This document shows, piece after piece, positions 3,000 to 45,018 of a stretch of 64,000 nucleotides of DNA (the first letter of the stretch is position 1; every line of letters starts with the position of its first letter). The notes beneath the pieces are model-generated. The model worked only from the letters and a program-made list of their open reading frames with translations. It ran no database searches and was not told the DNA's origin. The position numbers and the translations under genes are program-made. This stretch comes from Sipunculus nudus (lineage: Eukaryota; Annelida; Sipuncula; Golfingiida; Sipunculidae), in NCBI GenBank assembly GCA_026874595.1, contig CM049318.1:53981250-54045249 (forward strand). Reading direction: 5' to 3'.

Positions 3000-4165
3000 C
3001 TATATGGTATGGGACCAGAGGAATGAAATTTTGTTGGACGTATTCATTGCTCCGTAGTTTCGTGCCACATGTTGTTGCGCTCATCAGGTGAGACTGTCAG
3101 ATTGAAAACTTCCCCAGGTATCTAATATTTATAAAAGGAAACCGTGTTGCTTATGACGTTGGGCTATACCTCATTTTAATGTTACCGCAGAGACCTCGCC
3201 GAAATGAAAATAAATAAGTTTTAATGTACACGTCATTTCGAGTGATTTTGCGTGTTTTTTAAGTGCGTGGAGGTACCAGCAAAAACAGCCGAACTGCCTT
3301 CCTCAACGACCTGAATTCCTGCGTTGTCGCTGTTTCTTTACAACAGGCCTATTGAAGTCTCTATTGAGCATATTAATAAACCCTGCTTTCAGTGACCGAT
3401 TTAGACCTATTTAACTTGACCCTGACACTGGCCGACTTGCAGGGTCAGTAAATGTTAACAACAGGTGATTTCTCGATGCCTGGGCACACATTTCTCATAT
3501 CAGCATGCAATAATAGCGCATACGGGTGTGGTCGAGGGGGTACGGACACCCCCTCCCCCCTTGTTTTTTAACCGCCGGAACGCTTTTAAGGGATTTAGAC
3601 CTCTGTTTGCGAACTACTCCCCCCCCCCCCCATCCGCTTTCAGGACCTTGGTATCATTTTTAGGTTAAAATTAAGGAAACCCCTAAAAAGGTTGCGGCGA
3701 CTGGGGGGGGGGGGGGGGGGGGGTTCGAACGCCATTGGATCCGCTTCTGCTGCTAATGAAGCATGCATATTCCTATTTCTGTCTTTAGAAATAGCTTCCT
3801 TGCCTTAAACATACATTAAAATCATCTTCCATCAATCTTACCCTTATACTGCTATCAATAATAATACATGTAACCGGTCATAGGATCTTGGAATATCTGA
3901 ATGCCCCCGCTTCCCCTTCCGGTTCGCAATTCACTGACTAGGTCTTCAAGGTAAACATACCAATGTATGAATTTCTTGCCACAAGAACAACGCCACAAAA
4001 TAACTGTAAAAAATATTTGTACATATCGAGACAGTATCCGGCTGAAAATTTACATCTTATTTTAAATTTAAGAAGCCAACATTCTTCAGCTCATATAATA
4101 AATCAACCCAACTCGGATAAAAAGCCTGTATACCGGGTTTATCAGCTAGCATGTATATAACGCAT
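3000..4165 (+). repeat. Dispersed repeat family AC, copy 1
   Basis: This copy runs colinear with 17090-18190, and more distantly with 6225-7175 and 20460-21265. Shared landmarks in order are: a segment around CTCATCAGGTGAGACTGTCAG (AC1 copies only), a GCGTATGAC-like segment followed by AATAAATAA, a poly-C/poly-G section with TTGCGGCG, GGATCCGCTTCTGCT, a CTTCAAGGTAAACATACC segment, and an end near GGTTTATCAG. No protein is encoded. It is a mobile or segmentally duplicated repeat of unknown class. Confidence 0.7.
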
Positions 4166-4334
4166 ATTCTTCAACCCCCCCCCCCCCCCGATCGCATCCA
4201 GTACTCGCCGTCCTTTCGGAATTTCACCTCGTCTAATACTAAAATGTATATGTAATAAACAGACTCTTTACGGTAACTTTTATTATAATAAGTATGTACG
4301 GCACTAAGACGAAGGTCAAGGATGGCAGTCACTT

Positions 4335-4815
4335 TAGGTTAGAGGGACGTATTTCCAAGCCCCATATATATTATCATATGAGGCGCACATGTTGGGTGCA
4401 CTGAAAAAGTTTTATCTATCGAGTGTTTGGCATCATGTTATACATCAACACGTGAAATTTTATTTAATTTCAGAAAACCAGGGGATTCAGTATCTCGGGG
4501 TTTTTTTTCCGCTAGAGACCAGCATCAGAAGATAATTATAGTGAACCACGTTGTCGCCACCTGCCGAGCCATGCCCACACCACCAGTACTGACATTGTCA
4601 ATCTCCCCAAACGGCACAAAAAATTGTGACTACCTCTGAGAAAAAAAAAATTATTAAAAGTCTCCTGTCTCTCCCATATGGAACCAATATATTTTTCCTC
4701 ATACATTTAATGCCTAACATTCTCTGCTGCCCTTCAATATTTAATGCCTGCTCACTCTTGACGCCACAAAATGGGTCGTCCTTGACCGGACCTGGAAATA
4801 GGTCCCTCTAACCTA
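4335..4815. mobile_element. MITE with ~26-bp imperfect terminal inverted repeats
   Basis: The left end 4335-4360 and the complement of the right end 4790-4815 match at 23 of 26 positions; both begin TAGGTTAGAGGGAC. The element is about 481 bp and encodes nothing recognisable. It sits between repeat AC copy 1 and the Gypsy fragment and is absent from the corresponding place in the second copy of the chain (18190-18420). Flanks show no exact target duplication, so the superfamily is open. Confidence 0.65.
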
Positions 4816-5150
4816 CAGCACACACATGCGGCAAGTCAAGCTAGCCAGTTTGTATTTCCGGAATAAATATTGTTGTTTTCACGTCGTTCTCAAGTTATAA
4901 CAAGTGGCGACGAGCGGAATATCTTTACCAAATATCAAAATTAAGTGACCAAGATATTATTGAGAAGGTTGAGGGTATTCCTATCCCTTGGGTGTCACCC
5001 ATTGTAACACCTCCTAAGAAAGATCCTAATGCGATTAGGCTCTGTATAGATATGCGACAAGCTAACAAAGCCATCCAGAGGAAGCGACATCCGATGCCTA
5101 CTCTCGATGACATGGTAAATGAACTCAATGGAGCAACCCATTTACTTCAT
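4816..5150 (+). mobile_element. Gypsy/Ty3-like LTR retrotransposon fragment (LTR end, primer site, RT piece)
   Basis: A possible LTR end with AATAAA (4862-4867) closes at ...TAACA (4902). It is followed two bases later by TGGCGACGAG (4905-4914), which fits a primer-binding site complementary to the 3' end of tRNA-Ser. Directly after comes an open frame (about 4920-5145) reading DIIEKVEGIP, WVSPIV, PPKKDPNAIRLCIDMRQAN and PTLDDM. These match the N-terminal block of Gypsy reverse transcriptase. Homology ends at NGATHL, just before the catalytic motifs. Gag, protease, the rest of RT, RNase H and integrase are missing, so this is a deletion relic. The joining of primer site to mid-pol shows an internal deletion. 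Confidence 0.75.
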
Positions 5151-5179
5151 AATGAAAGAGTTCAATATATCAGTTATTT

Positions 5180-6215
5180 CAATATATGTTATGTGTGTAA
5201 TTATATCAAAGAAGTACTCCTGGAATGCATGAAATTTGAATATGAATAGATTCTAAACAAAAGGATATGCTAGAGTTATGAAACATATGTCAAGGTTTAT
5301 TTGGTATATGCCAGGAAGATGTAGGATATAAGAGCGTACAATAATTCATTGTCAATTATAAAACGGGGACGCCTCTGTTTTAATACTTCATTTATTGGGT
5401 CACTCTTAAAGTATCCATACATGAATAACATTAATAATACACATTGCTGTCACCTGTACCCGACGACACCCTGTGCTATTCAAAACAAGGGATTTATTTA
5501 TCCTTGTGAAGCTTGGTCTCTTATTATAGCGTATACCTCAATGGCATCCATACCTTTCCCTTATCTAACCAACAACTAAGTTACTTCATTGAGTGAACGC
5601 TTGGAACTGAAGATTCCCGAGTGCTGTACACAATAAATGATTTATTAATCCTTGTTCAGTGTGTCTCCTCATTATAGCGTTTATTAAAAAATTATGCGTT
5701 GCTCTGGTCAAACCAACAATTCAAATACTTTCACTGTGTACAACCTTTAAACCGATGTTGTCTGTGTGCTATTCATAATAAATAACTTATAGAACTTTGT
5801 TGAGCGTATTCTCTGATTATGACGTTTACTTCAAGAAATTCATGCGTTGCTTTGGTCAAACAAACATTTAAAGTAACTTCCACTGTAGGAAAAAAGTAGC
5901 TTTGCACTGAGCTAGGGTTAATACGTATAATATGCCGCCGCTATATAATGAGATTGTTCATTTCTTAGGAAGCTGTTCAATACAGGCTCTGTAATTTCAA
6001 ATTATAACACGGACAATTGCCTTATCGTTTTCCATGACCTCTGACCTTGCATTCACATTTCAGTCAGCCAACTTTTTGTGACTATTTTCTCAAATCAATA
6101 ATTCAGTGAAACGCACTATGTGCAGTATGATATTTCTCACTATCTATAAAAAAATAAATTTTAAATAAATGTATAAATTATTTTGCACTTGTATTTGAAA
6201 GTATCTAATACTTAA
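5180..6215 (+). repeat. Dispersed repeat family B, copy 1
   Basis: It is colinear with 18430-19430, sharing segments such as GAAGTACTCCTGGAATGCATG, AGAGCGTACAATAATTCATT, CAATAAATGATTTAT and TATGCCGCCGCTATATAATG. More distant relatives lie at 26100-26430 and 39330-39640. No coding capacity is supported. Confidence 0.65.
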
Positions 6216-6224
6216 AAAAGGAAT

Positions 6225-7175
6225 TCGGTCAACCTGCGTTCGCAATGTTCTCTAGAAACGCGTTGCGTATGACACTGTGCCATACCTAGTTTTAAAGGTT
6301 ATTGTTCCCGCAGTGACATGGCCGATATGAGAATAAATAATATTTAATGTACACATCATTTTGAGTGAATTTTGCGTGTTTTATGAACTGACCGAAATCT
6401 ACCGAACTGCCCTCATCAAAGACAGCACTTCTGTGTGGTCGCCTCAGCATTAAGGACATATTGTGCATGAATAACCTCTGCTTTCATGTGACGGTCTAAG
6501 CATGTTTGGCCTGACATTTAACCAAGGCTCTGAACCACGTGCATGGTCAGTCAATGTGAAAAACACATAACTCTCGCTTTATTAAGTGGAGGTGTTCAAC
6601 CCAGAAGGGTCAATGACAAAATACGTCTCATTTCCGAGAAAGGGGTGGGGGCTGGGTTCCAGGACTCAAAATGGGCCTGACACGATTAAAACAAGTTGCG
6701 GCGGCTGTAAGGGGGAACCCCTGGACTTCCTTTGGGTCCGCTTCTGCTTCTAACGAGGTATGCATATTTCCGTTTCTTTCTTCAGGAACAGTTCCCTTGC
6801 CTCAAAGGAACCTTTAATTCAGCTTTCATGTCTTCCTCACATCAACCTATTATTTGTAGTCCAACAATAGTAACCAGTCAAAGATCATCGAAAATCTGAA
6901 CGCCCCCGCGTCCCATCCCGGTTCGCAAATGTAAACATCCAGGTCAATATCCAGGTCTTCAAGGTAAACATACCGGTTTGTGAATTTCTTGCCACAAGCA
7001 AAGCGCCACAAAGAGATGTTAAAATATGTTTGTACATATCTTATTGAGATAGTTACCCACTGAAAATCTATATTTTCTTCCCACTTTTAGAATAAAAAAA
7101 TGCCAACATTCCTCATATCAGCTAATCATCTCCTCAACCTCGGTTTAAGCCCGATAGACCTGGTTTATCAGACAG
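6225..7175 (+). repeat. Dispersed repeat family AC, copy 2
   Basis: It is colinear with 20460-21265 and a divergent relative of 3130-4165. Shared landmarks are GCGTTGCGTATGACAC, AATAAATAAT, AAGTTGCGGCGGCTGTAA, TTTGGGTCCGCTTCTGCTTCTAACG and the GGTTTATCAG-like end. It abuts family B directly here, whereas in the second copy a LINE fragment lies between them. Confidence 0.65.
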
Positions 7176-7275
7176 TGTGATATAATCTTCTTTCTTTATT
7201 TCCTTTATAAAGCAGTTGCAGAAAAAAAAGAATCATTTATTAATTCGTCATAAAAGAAGAAAATATGATAAATAT

Positions 7276-7965
7276 TCAGTAAAAACGCCTGGTGATGTTT
7301 GTGTGTATTTTAATCAATATTATGTTTTCATCATATAAATCTTTTACATGTATTATCCCTGCATCTAACCAGTTTTTAAAATATAAGCATTTGCCATGGA
7401 ACATAAAGTTCTTGTTTAACCATATTTGTTGTTTTAGGAATTGGTTACTGCTCATATAGCGAATATCAGATTTCGTTTGACATTGGCTAAAATTACATAA
7501 CATTTCTTTCATAGTGACAATTAAAATCGCCAGCAATTATTAGATTTTTTTCGTTTACTGTGTGTTGTAATATCCATTTAAGAGCGTGCCTATAAAAATT
7601 GCATTTGCTATTTTCATCGTTTGGTGCATATAGTGATACTAAAGACAATTTCTCATTTTTAAATTCTAAATTTACCATAATAAGCCTACCATCGTTGTCA
7701 CAAACAGAATTAATTATACTATATTCAAAATTTCTACCCAAAGCTATAGCTACACCTCTGCTATGTTGACTTTCACTACAAGAGTGAAATATTTGTCCAT
7801 ACCAACTAGAATTATATATATATTTTTTTTATTTGGTACAAAATGTCTCTTGTAAAAATGTTATATCTATATTATTATCTTTCATCCACAGATACAGTTT
7901 TTTTCTTTTCATATTATCATCCAGTCCTCGTATGTTAAAAGACATACATCTTATAAAAGGCCCCA
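7276..7965 (-). pseudogene. LINE ORF2 remnant: endonuclease start fused to a post-RT piece
   Basis: The endonuclease N-terminus reads MSFNIRGLDDNMKRKKLY and ITFLQETFC (the Q-E-T motif of APE-type endonucleases). A frame break lies near 7830. The frame then resumes with SRGVAIALGRNFEY, LSLVSLYAPNDE and LIIAGDFNC (the G-D-F-N motif). After about 7515 the sequence jumps to a segment typical of the region after the RT domain. RT motifs, including the YxDD box, are absent. The product would be inactive for retrotransposition. Confidence 0.8.
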
Positions 7966-7999
7966 TTCTCATCTTTTTCTGGGTGTTTTTTTTGTGGAA

Positions 8000-9241
8000 G
8001 AAGGCTTGAATGTTGGGCGATTTATCTCTACTCGACCGTGGAGGTTGTTTTCTTTTACTTACAGTCTCAGGCTCCTCTGTATGCAAATCATCTGGTAGCG
8101 CCATAAGGATTGATCCGTAGACATTTTTCCCTGGCCATCGGTTTGGTTTGGTGATTGCGGTCACTTCATAATTCAGTCCTGTTCCCCAGTATAGGTCGTT
8201 CACCTTTGGGTTTATGAGAATTCTTGTTTCACTTTCTTGTAGTGCATCACGAAATTCTTCACTCTGGTTTAACTTGGCAGTCAGGATTTCTTTCATAACC
8301 CTGTCTTTCTGGCCTTCCCAGTCCGAATCGGACTTAACCTGAGCGGACAAGCTCTTTATATCAGAAGGTTTTGTGGCCTCTTTTATTTTTGTTGAAATAT
8401 CCAGTCTCCCGGATATAATCGCCCTTGTGTATTGAAAGGCCTGCTCAACAGACCCAAACTCTAACCCAAAGACCGGGAAATCCTCCGAATGAAACACAGA
8501 TAGCGGGGTTTTAGCATTATAGACAGATGAGACCCTGTCGTGATTATCCTCAAAGGCTTCACACTCTGTTGCCCCTTCTGTATGTGATTCAGATTTACAT
8601 ACTGCACAGACTTGTGGTTTTTCACAATTTGATGCCCAGTGACCTGGTTGTCTGCAGTTTCTATACAGAGGTTGATCTCCGAAGCCAGGCTGGTGTTTAT
8701 GAAAAATTCTACATTTGAAGCTGCCGCACAGTCTTTCTCGGGAGTGGTTTATCCTTAATTGAGTTTTCAAATACATACACAAATCTGTCCCCATTTTTGA
8801 TTGATGTCAGTTTACCATCATTGTCTCTTATATTTCCATATTTTATATCTCCACTCAGATCTGCACCAAGTTCCCCCAACATGTCTACGATCTCGTTATT
8901 GCTATAGGACAATGGGATGTCTTTTACTGTAACTTTAATTGTGTTTCTTGATTGGTCTGTATTCCCCACAGCAAATGGATTTTTGTCATACACACTCACA
9001 GACTGAGATCCAAAGGTTATGCCTTCAGACAGTAATTTTGTTCTAGATTCAATAGTCTTTAAATAGTCAATAGTCTCCACAGCGAACCAATTTTTTGACA
9101 CCCTTCTATGCACTCAAATGTCACACAATCCGCAACGACCTGTGACATTCTAAACAGAGTCAGATCCTTTCTTTGTGAGTACACAATATCCCTTTCAATA
9201 ATGAACACGGGCAGGACAGGTGTAGATTCCATGATTGGCAC
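8000..9241 (-). pseudogene. LINE ORF1: nucleic-acid-binding region, CCHC zinc knuckles and NADAR domain
   Basis: ORF1 must be read through at least two frameshifts: frames 9241-9059, 9113-8709 and 8794-7829. The N-terminal part contains NTIKVTVKDIPLSYSNNEIV, consistent with the RRM-like fold of L1/Tx1 ORF1 proteins. In the last frame (321 codons) residues about 43-78 form two zinc knuckles. The first is CRQPGHWASNC with its first Cys replaced by Tyr; the second is CAVCKSESH with a Cys seven residues on. Residues about 96-236 are a NADAR/YbiA-like domain. Residues 259-268 (SPNIQAFFHK) resemble a PCNA-interaction motif. The same frame runs without a stop into the ORF2 endonuclease. ORF1 proteins bind element RNA and package it with ORF2; a role for NADAR here is inference. 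Confidence 0.8.
8087..8509 (-). other. NADAR (YbiA-like) domain inside LINE ORF1
   Basis: Residues 96-236 of the 8794-7829 frame follow the NADAR pattern. They show TPLSVFHSEDFPVFGLEF, then FGSVEQAFQYTRA (the family's S-x-E-x-x-x-Q block, E117 and Q121), DWEGQKDRVM (W159, K163, M167), LTAKLNQ, D200 with LYWGTGLN (W203, G204, G206), and NVYGSILMAL at the end. Spacing and order match bacterial YbiA. NADAR proteins are ADP-ribose-linked N-glycosidases; some reverse guanine ADP-ribosylation of DNA. The reading frame is open across the domain. That the domain belongs to the element rather than a chance insertion is inferred from its place between zinc knuckles and endonuclease in one frame. Confidence 0.85.
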
Positions 9242-9249
9242 TGAGAGTT

Positions 9250-10255
9250 AATTGTCTTTCCAAAAATATGACAATTCTCTATAGTTTTAATTCAAAAGAT
9301 GCGAACATTTGCACTCCTGTATAGATGCGTACTTTACTCACCCTTGTGACAATTTCTATTCTAATACGTCAATAAAATCCTGCCGAAAACTGGCCAAATC
9401 AATGCAGCTACATGAAGTTCTCGCCATGAGCGCATCACGTTTCCTTCATCTAAAATGAGCAGGATCGGTTAAGGTGTGGGTGCAGCTGTGCTCGACTGAA
9501 AATTCGGTTGATATGATGACGAAACCAATCAATCGGCCGGGTTTTCCTCCAACTTTTCCTTCTCCTATTATTCATGCCAACAATAATAATCCTGGAGATG
9601 ACATCAGAAGTGACCAAAATGACCAGCAAGATCTGGTGATCTGCACGCGAAATATTAAGGCCGATAATGTAAAAAAAAATCGGTAGATGGGAATCTGGTT
9701 TTCTGACCGTGTATGGGATCTTGTAATAATATTTAAGATATTCTTTTCAAGCAATTTACCTGCTTAAATAATGTATTTTTTTATAAATCATATAATCCAA
9801 AAACGACGTCTTTATGATAGATGTGACTTTGAATTCTGTCTATTGAAGATCATATTTATTAATTTTCGGATTTTAACTTCATAATATTTAATCGAAAATC
9901 CCCTACCCATGGTATAATGATGTCTGTATGGTTTATCAGCTTTTGTTTATCATGGGGGTATCAAGGATATTGGAAAAAGGGCAAAAGGTTGGTGCAAATC
10001 AGGAAGACTGATGAGAAAACCTTACAATGATATTCAGGGCCGGGAAATGTGGGTCTAGACTACAGTAACTTGGTTTAAACTCGAAAAGGATTATATCAGC
10101 TTAAACGAGGAGGGTCCAAGCCTCTGCACTCTCCAGTTTGGATTCGCTATTGCTTATACACATAATCGGTTATACCATACTGAGATATCCACCAAAAGGT
10201 GTTTAGTTTTCACTCAAGTCAGGAGCGCTCCGGGATCAAAAACATGCCCTGGAAA
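9250..10255. other. Gene-free stretch before the minisatellite
   Basis: No gene, RNA or clear repeat is recognised. Short frames (for example 9474-9686) show no family resemblance. Confidence 0.4.
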
Positions 10256-11085
10256 TTTAACTCCATCGGTATCAATATTTATTTATACCATCAACTATCT
10301 AACGGCACTAATATTTTATATTTTATAGCATAAGCTGTTCATCGGAATCAATAATTGTTTATACCATAAGCTTTAGACCGGCATCAAGTTTTGTTTAAAC
10401 CACCAGCTGTCCACCGGTATAAATATTTGCTTATACCATTAACTGGATGTTAACCCGGATTAATAATGGTGTAAACCATCAATTGTCCAACGCCATCAAT
10501 ATTTGTTTTTACCATTAACTGTATTACTGCATCAATATTTGTTTATGATATCAAGTGCATGTTCACTAGCAATAGTATTTGTCCATACCATCAACTGTCC
10601 AAAGGCATCAACATTTGGTTTATACCATTATCTGTCCACTGGAATCAATGTTTTGTTTATACCATTAGCTGCCCCCTGGCTTCGGTATTTTGTTTGTACC
10701 ACAAGCAGCCTATCCGTATCAATACTTTGTTTATACTATAAGCTGCGAACCGGCATAATTATTTTGTTTATTCCAACAGGTGCGAACTGCCATCAGCATT
10801 TGTTTATACCACCAGCTGCCAGCCGGGCAAATACTGATTTTTAAGTAACATTTGATGCCCATTGGCATAATATATTGGTTATACCATCAACTGTCCACAA
10901 GCATCAGTATTTGTTTGCACCATCAGCTGTCCAACGGCATTGATGTTTGCTTATACTATGAACTGCATGTCCACCGGAATCAATATTTTGTTTATACCAT
11001 CACTGCCGACCGGCATCTGTCTTTTTTATACCATCAGGTGACAACCGGCATCAGTATTTGGTTATACCACCATCGCGCAATTTTC
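10256..11085 (+). repeat. Minisatellite, ~36-bp unit, about 20 degenerate copies
   Basis: The consensus unit is roughly GGCATCAATATTTGTTTATA followed by CCATCAACTGTCCACC. About 20 units are recognisable by the recurring TTTATACCATCA and GTCCACCGG words, with much point divergence and a few irregular spacers (for example near 10835-10865). Two units remain at 21885-21960 and about four in reverse orientation at 32975-33160. In each place the array precedes the same downstream block. The translated frames are by-products of the repeat. Confidence 0.8.
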
Positions 11086-32974: not shown

Positions 32975-33160
32975 TGCTTGGTTAGCAGCTGATGGTATAA
33001 ACAAATACTGAGGCGGGTGACAGTTGATTGTATAATCAATATATTGATAGCCGTTGGACAGCTGGTGGTATAAACAAAGTATTGATGCCGGTGGACTGCT
33101 GGTGGTTTTAACGAAATGTTGGTGCCGATTGAAAGCAAATGATATTAACAAATATAACAA
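32975..33160 (-). repeat. Four units of the ~36-bp minisatellite, inverted
   Basis: The complement reads as four units with GTTTATACCATCAGCTG and CCACCGGCATCAATACTTTG words, the same consensus as 10256-11085. Confidence 0.75.
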
Positions 33161-33979: not shown

Positions 33980-35560
33980 TAAAACTAGAATATGGGTAAT
34001 CGACAAGCGACTATGTGTATCTGCAGAAATCAGAGTGGGACGGGTTAAGTGAGGCATGTATTAAGTGGCAAGGGGAATAGAGTGAGGTGTGATTCATATT
34101 AGCATGGATGTCTGCAGCTTAAACGTGAATGTAGGTGGTGCCACTTGTCATAAAATCGAGAAAATTGTCCAGGATGTATAAACCTGCAAAATTTCAGGTG
34201 GTTAAGTCAAACCACTGCTGAGAAATGAGTGATATATTATCCCAAGGCAGATGAATATATGGACGGTGTTCATAAGTGGTTGCAGGTTGCGCCACTAGTT
34301 TTGCTTATGATGAAGAGCTATGTGAGATCAATACATATGCCAAATTTTGGCCCAATCGGTCAAACGGTTCCCGAGATATGAGCGTGGATGTCTGCAGAGC
34401 AAACGTGAATGTAGGTGGCGCCACCTGTCATAAAATTGAGAAAGCTGTCGAAGTGTATAAACCTGCAAAATTTCAGGTGGAAAAGTCAATCCACTGCTGA
34501 GATATGAGTGATTTTATCCCAAGGCAGATGAACAGATGGACGCTGTGCAAAATTGGTAACATGAGGCGCCACCAGTTTTGCCTTTGATGAAGAGCTATGT
34601 GAGATCTATACACATGCAAAATTTTGGCCCAATCGGTCAAACCGTTCCCGAGATATGAGCGTGGATGTCTGCAGAGTAAACCTGAATGTAGGTGGCGCCA
34701 CCTGTCATAAAATCGAGAAACCTGTCCAGGATGTATAAACCAGTAAAATTTCAGGTGGATAAGTCAAACTACTGCTGAGATATGAGTGATTTTATCCCAA
34801 GGCAGATGAACAGATGGACGCTGTGCATAAATGGAAACAGGGGCGCCACCAGTTTTGCCTATGATGAAGAGCTGTGTGAGATCTATATACGTGCAAAATT
34901 TTGGTCCGATCGGTCAAACGGTTCCCGAGATATGAGCTTGGATATCTGCAGAGTAAACCTGAATGTAGGTGGCGCCACCTTTCATCAAATCAAGAGTGCT
35001 GTCCAGGATGTATAAACCTGCAAAATTTCAGGTGGATAAGTAAAACCACTGCTGAGATATGAGTGATATTATCCCAAGGCAGATGAACAGATGGACGCTG
35101 TGCAAAAATGGTCGCAGGTGGCGCCACCAGTTAGCCTATGATGAAGAGCTATGTGAGATATATACACATGCAAAATGTTGGACCAATTGGTCAAACCGTT
35201 CCCGAGATATGAGCTTGGTTGTCTGCAGAGTAAACGTGAATGTAGGTGGCGCCACCTGCCATAAAATCGAGAAACCTGTCCAGGATGTATAAACCTGCAA
35301 AATTTCAGGTGAATAAGTCAAACCACTGCTGAGATATGAGTGATTTTATCCCAAGGCAGGTGAACAGATGGACGCTGTGCAAAAATGGATGCAGGTGGCG
35401 CCACCATTTTTAGTGTATGTTATAAAGCTATCAAAGGGCTACATTTGTGCAAAATTTTTAGCCTTATCGGTCAAACGGTTCCCGAGATATGCGGGGTTAT
35501 GTGTGGAAACAGACGCACAAATGGACGCTGGGCAGTGAGGAAAGGTCAGAGGTCAACCAA
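33980..35560 (+). repeat. 277-bp tandem array with GGTGGCGCCACC palindromes inside a dispersed element
   Basis: After a leader shared with 58930-59080 (AATCGACAAGCGACTATGTG, GTGGCAAGGGGAA), the equivalent site recurs at 34134, 34414, 34691, 34968 and 35245. That gives spacings of 280, then exactly 277 three times. Each unit comprises two related halves, each starting near the palindrome and ending TGAGATATGAG or CGAGATATGAG, and each containing TGCAAAATTT. The tail (35490-35560, GGACGC and GAGGAAAGGTCA) also matches the element at 59460-59520. Frames across it are repeat artefacts. Confidence 0.85.
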
Positions 35561-43900: not shown

Positions 43901-45018
43901 TTATATTATATTCTGTTCTCAATGTCTCCTTGATTCCAATGCCATTTTAGTCCTACACCTCTCAGGTGCTGAGAAGTATTATAATTGACTTGTAACGTTT
44001 AAGTTCTAAACAGATTTTGTTGGAAATTTGTATAGTATTAGGGAAAGACTGAAGGAACATCCTATGAAATTTTGAAGTATTCTGGATCACCAGAAAAAAC
44101 ATTTAGACTAGGGCTTTCAGGAATGCTGGAATAGGCGTCTGTGACGCTCACAATCCAACTGGGACGCTCGGTTCTGAGCGTCCAAGGGTCCAACCGGACG
44201 CGTTAAAATTCTGGCTATTTGACACAGAGGATCAAAATTGATCTTTGTAGCAGTTACTGACCATTGTTGATTTCACGTGAAATAAAAAAAAATTGAAACA
44301 CACTACAGAATTGGACACATATCGCCTTCCATTGGGACGCGCCATATTGCAATGTGACCTTATAGCTCTCTATTAGAGTGCTTTTGGCTTCTGTTAATAA
44401 AAAAATTTAAAGAAATTTGATATACCTCCCACTCAGAGTCATTTCCCGACCTTTGAGATAAATTGACGCCACTGGCATACATAACCGTGGGAGTTTATTT
44501 TCTTTGGAGATAAATTGACGCCACTGGTATACATTACCGTGAGAGTCCATTTTCTGTGGAGATAAATTGACGCCACTGGCATACATGACCGTGAAAGTTC
44601 ATTTTCTCTTGGAGATAAATTGACGCTACTGGCATACATTACCGTGACAGTCCATTTTCGTTGGAGATAAATTGACGCCACTGACATACATGGCATTGAG
44701 AGTCTATTTTCTATGGAGATAAATTGACGCCACTGGCATACATTACCGTGAAAGTTCATTTTCTCTTGGAGATAAATTGACGCCACTGGCATACATAACC
44801 ATGAGTGTCCATTTTCTCATCAAGTATTTGCTCAAGGAATAAATAAGTTCTTCTTATTTAGTTTTACTTTTTTTTCTTATCAGGGCAAGATAAGGACGAA
44901 CTACGAGCTGTTTCCACACAGCCGCGCCAAGAAAACGGCTTGTCCTGGAAGTCAACTTGAGAACATCATAAGGACTTGGCCAAATTACAGCAACAAAGTA
45001 ATCAAGAAATACAATTAA
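40993..45018 (+). CDS. Secreted peptidoglycan recognition protein with N-terminal TSP1-like domain (4 exons)
   Basis: Exons are 40993-41254, 42058-42243, 42897-43108 and 44884-45018 (795 bases, 264 residues). All introns are GT/AG, and junctions are phases 1, 1 and 0. Residues 1-23 are a signal peptide (MRITVAAALLLAVVLVLPVS, cleavage probably after SSDA). Residues 33-86 carry eight Cys with SWGKWGAC, RRTR and CGGTTC, resembling a thrombospondin type 1 repeat. Residues about 92-255 are a PGRP domain: SRTEWGAR, FIHHT (119-123), the C128/C134 pair, DIGYNW (Y158), VYEGRGW, SIGIAFIGNF and KKTACPG. The zinc and catalytic residues of amidase PGRPs (His of FIHHT, Y158, H232, C240) are all present, so it probably hydrolyses peptidoglycan outside the cell in innate immunity. 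Exon 1 is the part that recurs elsewhere. Isoform structure is inferred, not observed. Confidence 0.88.
41360..41565 (+). repeat. Intron-1 segment shared with 61655-61830
   Basis: Segments TGCTTGTGTCAC, GGCCCGGT, CTCCTGGGTGT, GCTGGGTCAAAACAA and GTGATACACGGCCGTAGG recur in the same order at 61655-61830, downstream of the exon-1 fragment there. Confidence 0.8.
43560..43950. other. Intron 3 open frames on both strands, unrecognised
   Basis: Overlapping frames of 119 codons (minus, 43922-43563) and 89 codons (plus, 43681-43950) lie inside the third PGRP intron. Neither shows a family signature, and they are probably incidental. Confidence 0.2.
44457..44820. repeat. Seven-copy ~52-bp minisatellite in PGRP intron 3
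   Basis: The unit starts GAGATAAATTGACGCCACTG and ends TCCATTTTCTNTG. Seven copies follow each other with few changes and lengths of 52-53 bp. The array stops about 65 bp before exon 4. The minus-strand frame across it is a repeat artefact. Confidence 0.9.

Follow-up and report, generated by a model that had tools for sequence, protein, structure and literature searches.

A NADAR domain without the usual catalytic acid in ORF1 of LINE elements of Sipunculus nudus

The coding sequence of a LINE in the genome of Sipunculus nudus contains a NADAR domain, which raises the question of whether this retrotransposon carries an ADP-ribose eraser or has kept the domain for another use. The domain lies on the minus strand of a stretch of 64,000 nucleotides (assembly GCA_026874595.1, contig CM049318.1, positions 53,981,250 to 54,045,249), which is called the window below. 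A preliminary description made from the window had placed the domain in ORF1, between zinc knuckles and an endonuclease.

The window copy and the class of the element

The minus-strand frame 7829-8794 of the window is open over 321 aa, and its protein (P0001) matches the NADAR profile PF08719 with an E value of 3.7e-26 and 92.7 bits, against a curated cut-off of 35.1. This match, significant over the 321-residue frame for which the profile check had been proposed, bears out the NADAR domain described for ORF1 of the LINE. An AlphaFold2 model of the domain reached a pLDDT of 93.9 and matched only two PDB entries at E<=0.001, the NADAR of P. nicotianae with ADP-ribose (8bau) and YbiA of E. coli (2b3w), with a TM of 0.77 to both (by query length). 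The alignment used for the model contained 78 viral and bacterial NADARs and favours the NADAR fold; the model therefore confirms compatibility with this fold and is not a discovery of it. A model made from an alignment with two relatives only (3 sequences) had a pLDDT of 46 and was not used. The features of the window copy, together with those of three host genes discussed below, are listed in Table 1.

Table 1. Features of the LINE copy in the window and of the TRIM-like genes (positions of the latter are those of their own loci)
Feature	Position	Strand	Evidence or remark
LINE copy, family A	7310..9440	-	5' end near 9440, shared 5' end; blastn vs L032-L036 93-99%
ORF1 N-terminal part, RRM-like by eye	8709..9113	-	open frame; 95% to L032 ORF1 residues 60-172
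Zinc knuckle 1	8624..8665	-	CX2CX4HX4C in L032, L033, L035; first Cys is Tyr in the window
Zinc knuckle 2, CX2CX4HX6C	8561..8608	-	also precedes NADAR of host TRIM-like genes
NADAR domain, P0001 residues 99-237	8084..8500	-	PF08719, model, fold match
N195 codon, at the place of catalytic glutamate E125	8210..8212	-	alignment to NADARs
ORF2 APE endonuclease start	7838..7945	-	shares the frame of NADAR in this decayed copy alone
Further ORF2 endonuclease piece, up to the deletion	7514..7828	-	PF14529 E 4.5e-5, 23.7 bits (cut-off 27.4); blastn to L032-L036
Internal deletion of the LINE copy	7513/7507	-	blastn vs L032-L036
Distal element piece past the internal deletion	7310..7507	-	98.5% to L032 7184-7381
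L041, single frame with knuckle-NADAR module	3596-5524		RING, B-box above cut-off
L042, single frame with knuckle-NADAR module	6532-8559		RING, B-box above cut-off
L043, single frame with knuckle-NADAR module	6527-8314		RING-like by eye

The copy is without its 3' part, as the match to L032-L036 in blastn ends at 7310. No Pfam profile exceeded its own cut-off in the N-terminal part of ORF1. Two zinc knuckles do stand before the NADAR domain, as had been described, but the CCHC profile reached only 18.6 bits in the window copy, under its cut-off of 20.8, and knuckle 1 has lost its first Cys. The endonuclease start that shares the frame is weak when taken alone (Exo_endo_phos, 16.1 bits against a cut-off of 24.5).

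That knuckles, NADAR and endonuclease form one continuous frame was seen correctly in the window, but the frame does not reflect the protein encoded by the element. In L032, L033, L034 and L035, the NADAR frame ends before the endonuclease and its ATGA stop overlaps an ATG of the ORF2 frame; ORF1 of L037, L039, L044, L045 and L050 likewise terminates ahead of ORF2. The ORF1 frame of L032, open over 424 aa, holds two knuckles, the NADAR domain and a basic tail, and the next frame is that of the APE endonuclease. The joined frame of the window is a product of decay because the length of an A-run differs between the window and L032-L035, with yet another length in L036. The unbroken knuckle-NADAR-endonuclease frame thus belongs to a dead, internally deleted copy and is not an architecture, and an endonuclease in the same protein as NADAR is ruled out by the ORF1 stops of the relatives and the A-run difference.

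The APE profile is clear in L032 (PF03372, 1.6e-11) and L044, and that of reverse transcriptase in L040 (PF00078, 4.3e-35, with the zf-RVT profile PF13966 at 4.3e-8) and L044. Compared with solved structures, ORF2 of L040 is closest to human L1 ORF2p (237 bits, vs 67 bits for R2). The element belongs to the L1/Tx1 superfamily of APE-type LINEs, the label Tx1 being taken from a report on oyster elements (PMC12477816). Its ORF1 protein starts with an RRM-like N-terminal part, which is followed by zinc knuckles, the NADAR domain and a tail that is basic or charged. By eye, family A has a 5' end common to L032, L033, L034 and L036 and a 3' end with A-tails common to L032, L034, L035 and L036; target-site duplications could be read in L032, L034 and L036, only the 5' end of L033 and the 3' end of L035 having been examined.

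Several further observations were made on these copies and on the window. At the 3' end of L034, extra bases, seen by eye, separate two A-runs ahead of the target-site repeat in the manner of a 3' transduction, and L032 has a 516-base tandem duplication within ORF2 (4907-5937). The sequence SPNIQAFFHKK in the ORF1 tail of the window copy (about 7988-8020, minus strand) resembles a PCNA-binding (PIP) box in degenerate form; near the end of its ORF1, family B has TRSLRDYLKK. Elsewhere, the window contains a Ty3/gypsy reverse transcriptase-like piece (4845-5100, plus strand, by eye) and minisatellite arrays (10262-11069 and 32986-33155; 34096-35491; 44451-44817; units of about 36, 277 and 52 bases).

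Spread in the genome and inheritance of the domain

A search of the genome (1.43 Gb) with P0001 gave 129 match rows, a single copy being able to yield several, which leaves no room for chance, and five further places are more than 90% identical to the query. PF08719 itself gave at least 141 match rows, of which one gene may likewise yield several. Just downstream and on the same strand of 29 of these 141 rows (two of them pieces of one copy), an APE start like that of family A is present; the window, L039, L045, L049 and L050 add to the 29 by their sequence. It is hardly credible, then, that a piece of a host NADAR gene once landed in a LINE copy, or that an assembly artefact created this arrangement. 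The broken window copy with its odd frame would suit such an origin, but the five close copies elsewhere, the rows with an APE start and the occurrence of the domain in deeper families speak against it, and a one-off insertion is already refuted by the other copies in the genome. Apart from the LINE copies, clusters of short NADAR matches at C15:13.1-13.2 Mb and C2:44.6 Mb are perhaps exons of host gene arrays.

The association between NADAR and a particular kind of ORF1 was followed with N-terminal parts of ORF1 as queries. With the family A query, for which 88 of 147 table rows were used and 69 counted, NADAR was found within 900 bp in all 18 counted rows at >=43% identity (15 of them through PF08719 and 3 through a match to P0001), in 17 of 26 rows at 38.5-43% and in 1 of 25 below this; 32 of these 36 positive rows were recognised by PF08719 itself and 4 by a P0001 match. 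With the family D query (76 of 143 rows used, 76 counted), NADAR follows 27 of 31 rows at >=50% (25 by PF08719), 8 of 13 at 40-49%, 1 of 3 at 36-39% and none of 29 at <=35%. Most of the rows used extend to the query end; further rows with low scores and short pieces, some of which extend as far, were left out, and rows scored as negative could carry a NADAR too decayed or diverged to detect. As NADAR follows close but not distant ORF1 N-terminal parts, it marks one lineage among related ORF1s.

Within this lineage, the NADAR domain has been inherited through at least four LINE families, A, B, C and D. The N-terminal parts of ORF1 are 54% identical between A and B, 56% between C and D and 38-42% for other pairs, and the NADAR domains follow the same order (48%, 49% and 30-34%); the identity of the APE domain tracks the families weakly (45%, 46% and 39-43%). 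Between families or subfamilies, the NADAR domain has a pS of 0.69-0.89, at or near saturation, and a pN of 0.19-0.49. The rest of ORF1 is constrained much as NADAR (pS 0.67-0.80, pN 0.33-0.44). As judged from these sequence comparisons, the family identities and the pN/pS pattern fit vertical inheritance with purifying selection, so that the selection on the domain that had been suggested for examination is seen between families. Close copies are uninformative: their dN/dS, where defined, ranges from 0.09 to 2.1, based on 0-4 synonymous and 1-8 nonsynonymous differences, scatters around neutrality and mostly records decay after insertion.

The active site and the possible role of the domain

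In 8bau, ADP-ribose is contacted directly or via water by E43, K50, W89, R93, E125, D130 and W133 (PMC11543638). The structural equivalent of E125 in the E. coli C7 NADAR, D171, is described in the same work as needed for efficient guanine de-ADP-ribosylation, which was lost in both D171A and D171N, while a K-to-R change at the place of K50 left the protein active in vitro and no longer able to rescue cells (PMC11543638). Phage NADARs have His at the E125 place (PMC11125620). Within the YbiA subfamily, competence was judged by Glu at this place (BC4488 has Asp there, and phage forms have His).

The window NADAR keeps E117, W159, K163, D200 and W203, and has R124 at the place of K50 and N195 at that of E125 (8bau numbers). 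It shares with the P. nicotianae NADAR and YbiA the fold, E48 and D130, and, in family A, also W89 and W133; it differs from them in the missing acid at E125, in the Arg at K50 in family A and, by alignment, in a shortened Y84 stretch in the same family. All 97 canonical NADAR rows have an acid at the E125 place; none of 17 LINE rows and none of three TRIM-like rows has one. The canonical rows comprise 6 from the host and E. coli, 14 from phages, plasmids or bacteria and 77 from IMG/VR, one phage being counted twice; they were chosen by similarity to the window, L056 or three canonical NADARs, and include five of many host NADARs, the 77 from IMG/VR being those kept of 105 loci after removal of stops, short and near-identical rows. 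Thirteen further LINE copies, five read as 60-base pieces and eight as fragments, also have no acid at this place, which brings the count to 0 of 30 LINE copies. A His at or beside the E125 place occurs in three of the 30 (L018, L048 and L177), the relatives of which have Asn, Leu or Ala, and L006 has a His near a frame break around this place.

Other residues behave differently. In YbiA numbering, E48, K104 and D130 are kept in 17 of 17 LINE rows and N143 in 16 of 16 readable ones; G134 and G136 are also invariant where readable. Family A keeps W89, K93, W133 and D130, W89 is absent in families C and D and W133 in B and D, and G78 has been lost in A, B and B2 and R79 in A, B2, C and D. As the losses of W89 and W133 differ by family, even ligand binding may differ between the families.

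Since the usual catalytic acid is missing, the NADAR of the LINE copies more likely binds than cuts. We consider it probable that the domain is a conserved pseudo-NADAR, a predicted binding module of the ORF1 particle that would not remove ADP-ribose. Such a pseudoenzyme would have a retained pocket, the ligand of which may, as a guess, be nucleotide-like (ADP-ribose conjugates, NAD-type RNA ends or adenine-rich RNA); together with the knuckles, NADAR could keep RNA of the element, or a host factor that is ADP-ribosylated, within the ORF1 particle. A single lost residue is no proof that activity is gone, and the few His copies, the retention of W89, K93 and W133 in family A and the tolerance of K-to-R in vitro by the C7 NADAR count against a pseudoenzyme.

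The role of an ADP-ribose eraser, put forward in the preliminary description, found no support in the residues at the E125 place. According to this alternative, the domain is hydrolytically active by an altered chemistry, strips ADP-ribose from RNA, cDNA or proteins of the element and so counters PARP-type marking by the host. It agrees with the fold, with the several ligand residues that family A has retained, with the His of a few copies, which is the phage residue, and with the NADARs of animal RNA viruses, which have been proposed to target host ADP-ribosylation (PMC9503650). It seems unlikely to us nonetheless, given the absence of the acid in all copies read, the behaviour of the two D171 mutants (PMC11543638), the loss of W89 or W133 in families B, C and D and the losses of G78 and R79. 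A second alternative holds that the domain does no more than help ORF1p to fold, to multimerise or to bind RNA by its surface, with a vestigial pocket. The variation of pocket residues among families that share the core motifs, and the similar constraint on the rest of ORF1, agree with such a structural passenger, which we nevertheless regard as rather doubtful, as the six invariant residues listed above perhaps go beyond the needs of a pure scaffold, although some of them are structural.

For the pseudo-NADAR, parallels exist among relatives of other ADP-ribose enzymes. ZAP is an inactive PARP. It restricts retrotransposition (PMC4441479), and TASOR has been termed a pseudo-PARP (PMC7532188). 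Inactive relatives of ADP-ribose enzymes thus act in transposon control, and a reader-type role of the LINE NADAR is therefore plausible by analogy, though these cases are no evidence for it.

TRIM-like host genes and comparison with known systems

Three single open frames outside the LINE copies, L041, L042 and L043, have the CX2CX4HX6C knuckle directly before NADAR and no acid at E125, as in LINE families A-D. Unlike LINE ORF1, the frames of L041 and L042 contain a RING and a B-box; in L043, Pfam gave neither of these at E<=0.1 and, besides NADAR, no more than a weak Phage_30_3 match that stays under its cut-off. APE and RT profiles found no match in the three frames. L041 and L042 are located on C5 near 28.2-28.9 Mb, in a cluster of four NADAR matches, and a dN/dS of 0.12 between their NADAR domains is as in working genes.

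In phylogenetic trees, one branch sets the LINE and TRIM-like rows apart from the canonical ones (97/97 for 26 rows, 93/91 for 24 rows, 99/95 for 59 rows). The TRIM-like rows branch together with families C and D of the LINEs (88/85 with 26 rows, 95/95 without two long rows, 93/88 with 59 rows), while trees that hold the LINE rows together are not rejected (AU p 0.246; 0.448 in the 59-row set). The three TRIM-like rows do not form one clade in the 59-row tree, for which IMG/VR rows with a locus number divisible by four were taken. B2_L009, B2_L023, B_L014 and D_L048 were dropped from the trees as partial LINE rows; three of them were read for E125, and B_L014 ends before this place. Viral contigs yielded no NADAR relatives when searched with the window, L052 and L041. 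The sole viral-contig match to an E. coli YbiA query, L059, was dropped, as no NADAR was seen in its open frames.

TRIM-cyclophilin fusions recognise or co-assemble with capsids. A tentative possibility, which we hold to be rather improbable, is that LINE ORF1 and host TRIM-type ubiquitin ligases share an inherited module of zinc knuckle and pseudo-NADAR that one obtained from the other: the host may have captured it to recognise or co-assemble with LINE particles, or the LINE may have taken it up to mimic an ADP-ribose reader of the host. If true, the pseudo-NADAR would be the contact point at which transposon and host meet in a conflict that rests on recognising ADP-ribose.

Conflicts between viruses and their hosts repeatedly involve ADP-ribose systems. 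A LINE lineage that keeps a selected ADP-ribose-related domain without its catalytic acid, in a genome with the same module in TRIM-like genes, offers a concrete case, open to testing, in which ADP-ribose recognition may take part in the control of LINEs. It also serves as a warning that annotation as NADAR alone is no evidence of an ADP-ribose eraser.

The preliminary description knew of no LINE with this architecture, but it is already in print: several families of Tx1 LINEs listed in Repbase for Crassostrea gigas have ORF1 proteins that appear to hold a YbiA-family NADAR, found alongside NADAR in Gypsy elements of Ectocarpus and suggested to act in RNA processing (PMC12477816, 2025). Among open-licence papers, searched by title and the start of the abstract, no other LINE NADAR, no TRIM-NADAR and no report of the missing acid was found. 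As far as this search extends, the absence of the E125 acid in each LINE family read and the host TRIM-like genes with the same knuckle-NADAR module are new. The oyster elements resemble those of S. nudus in being LINEs with NADAR in ORF1; the two sentences that report them are without catalytic-residue, selection or host-gene analysis, and the likeness is one of description alone (PMC12477816). The Ectocarpus elements are also retrotransposons with a YbiA-family NADAR, but they are LTR elements, the nearest NADAR relatives of which outside Ectocarpus are, according to the authors, almost all bacterial (PMC12477816); we infer that they gained the domain independently. SNA-3, a nematode trans-splicing protein with three NADARs, is similar in that a NADAR is present in an RNA-handling eukaryotic protein and in that its NADAR1 is also without the YbiA residues, and it differs in being encoded by a host gene that is not mobile, in which residue mutations of NADAR2 and NADAR3 harm function (PMC9303266).
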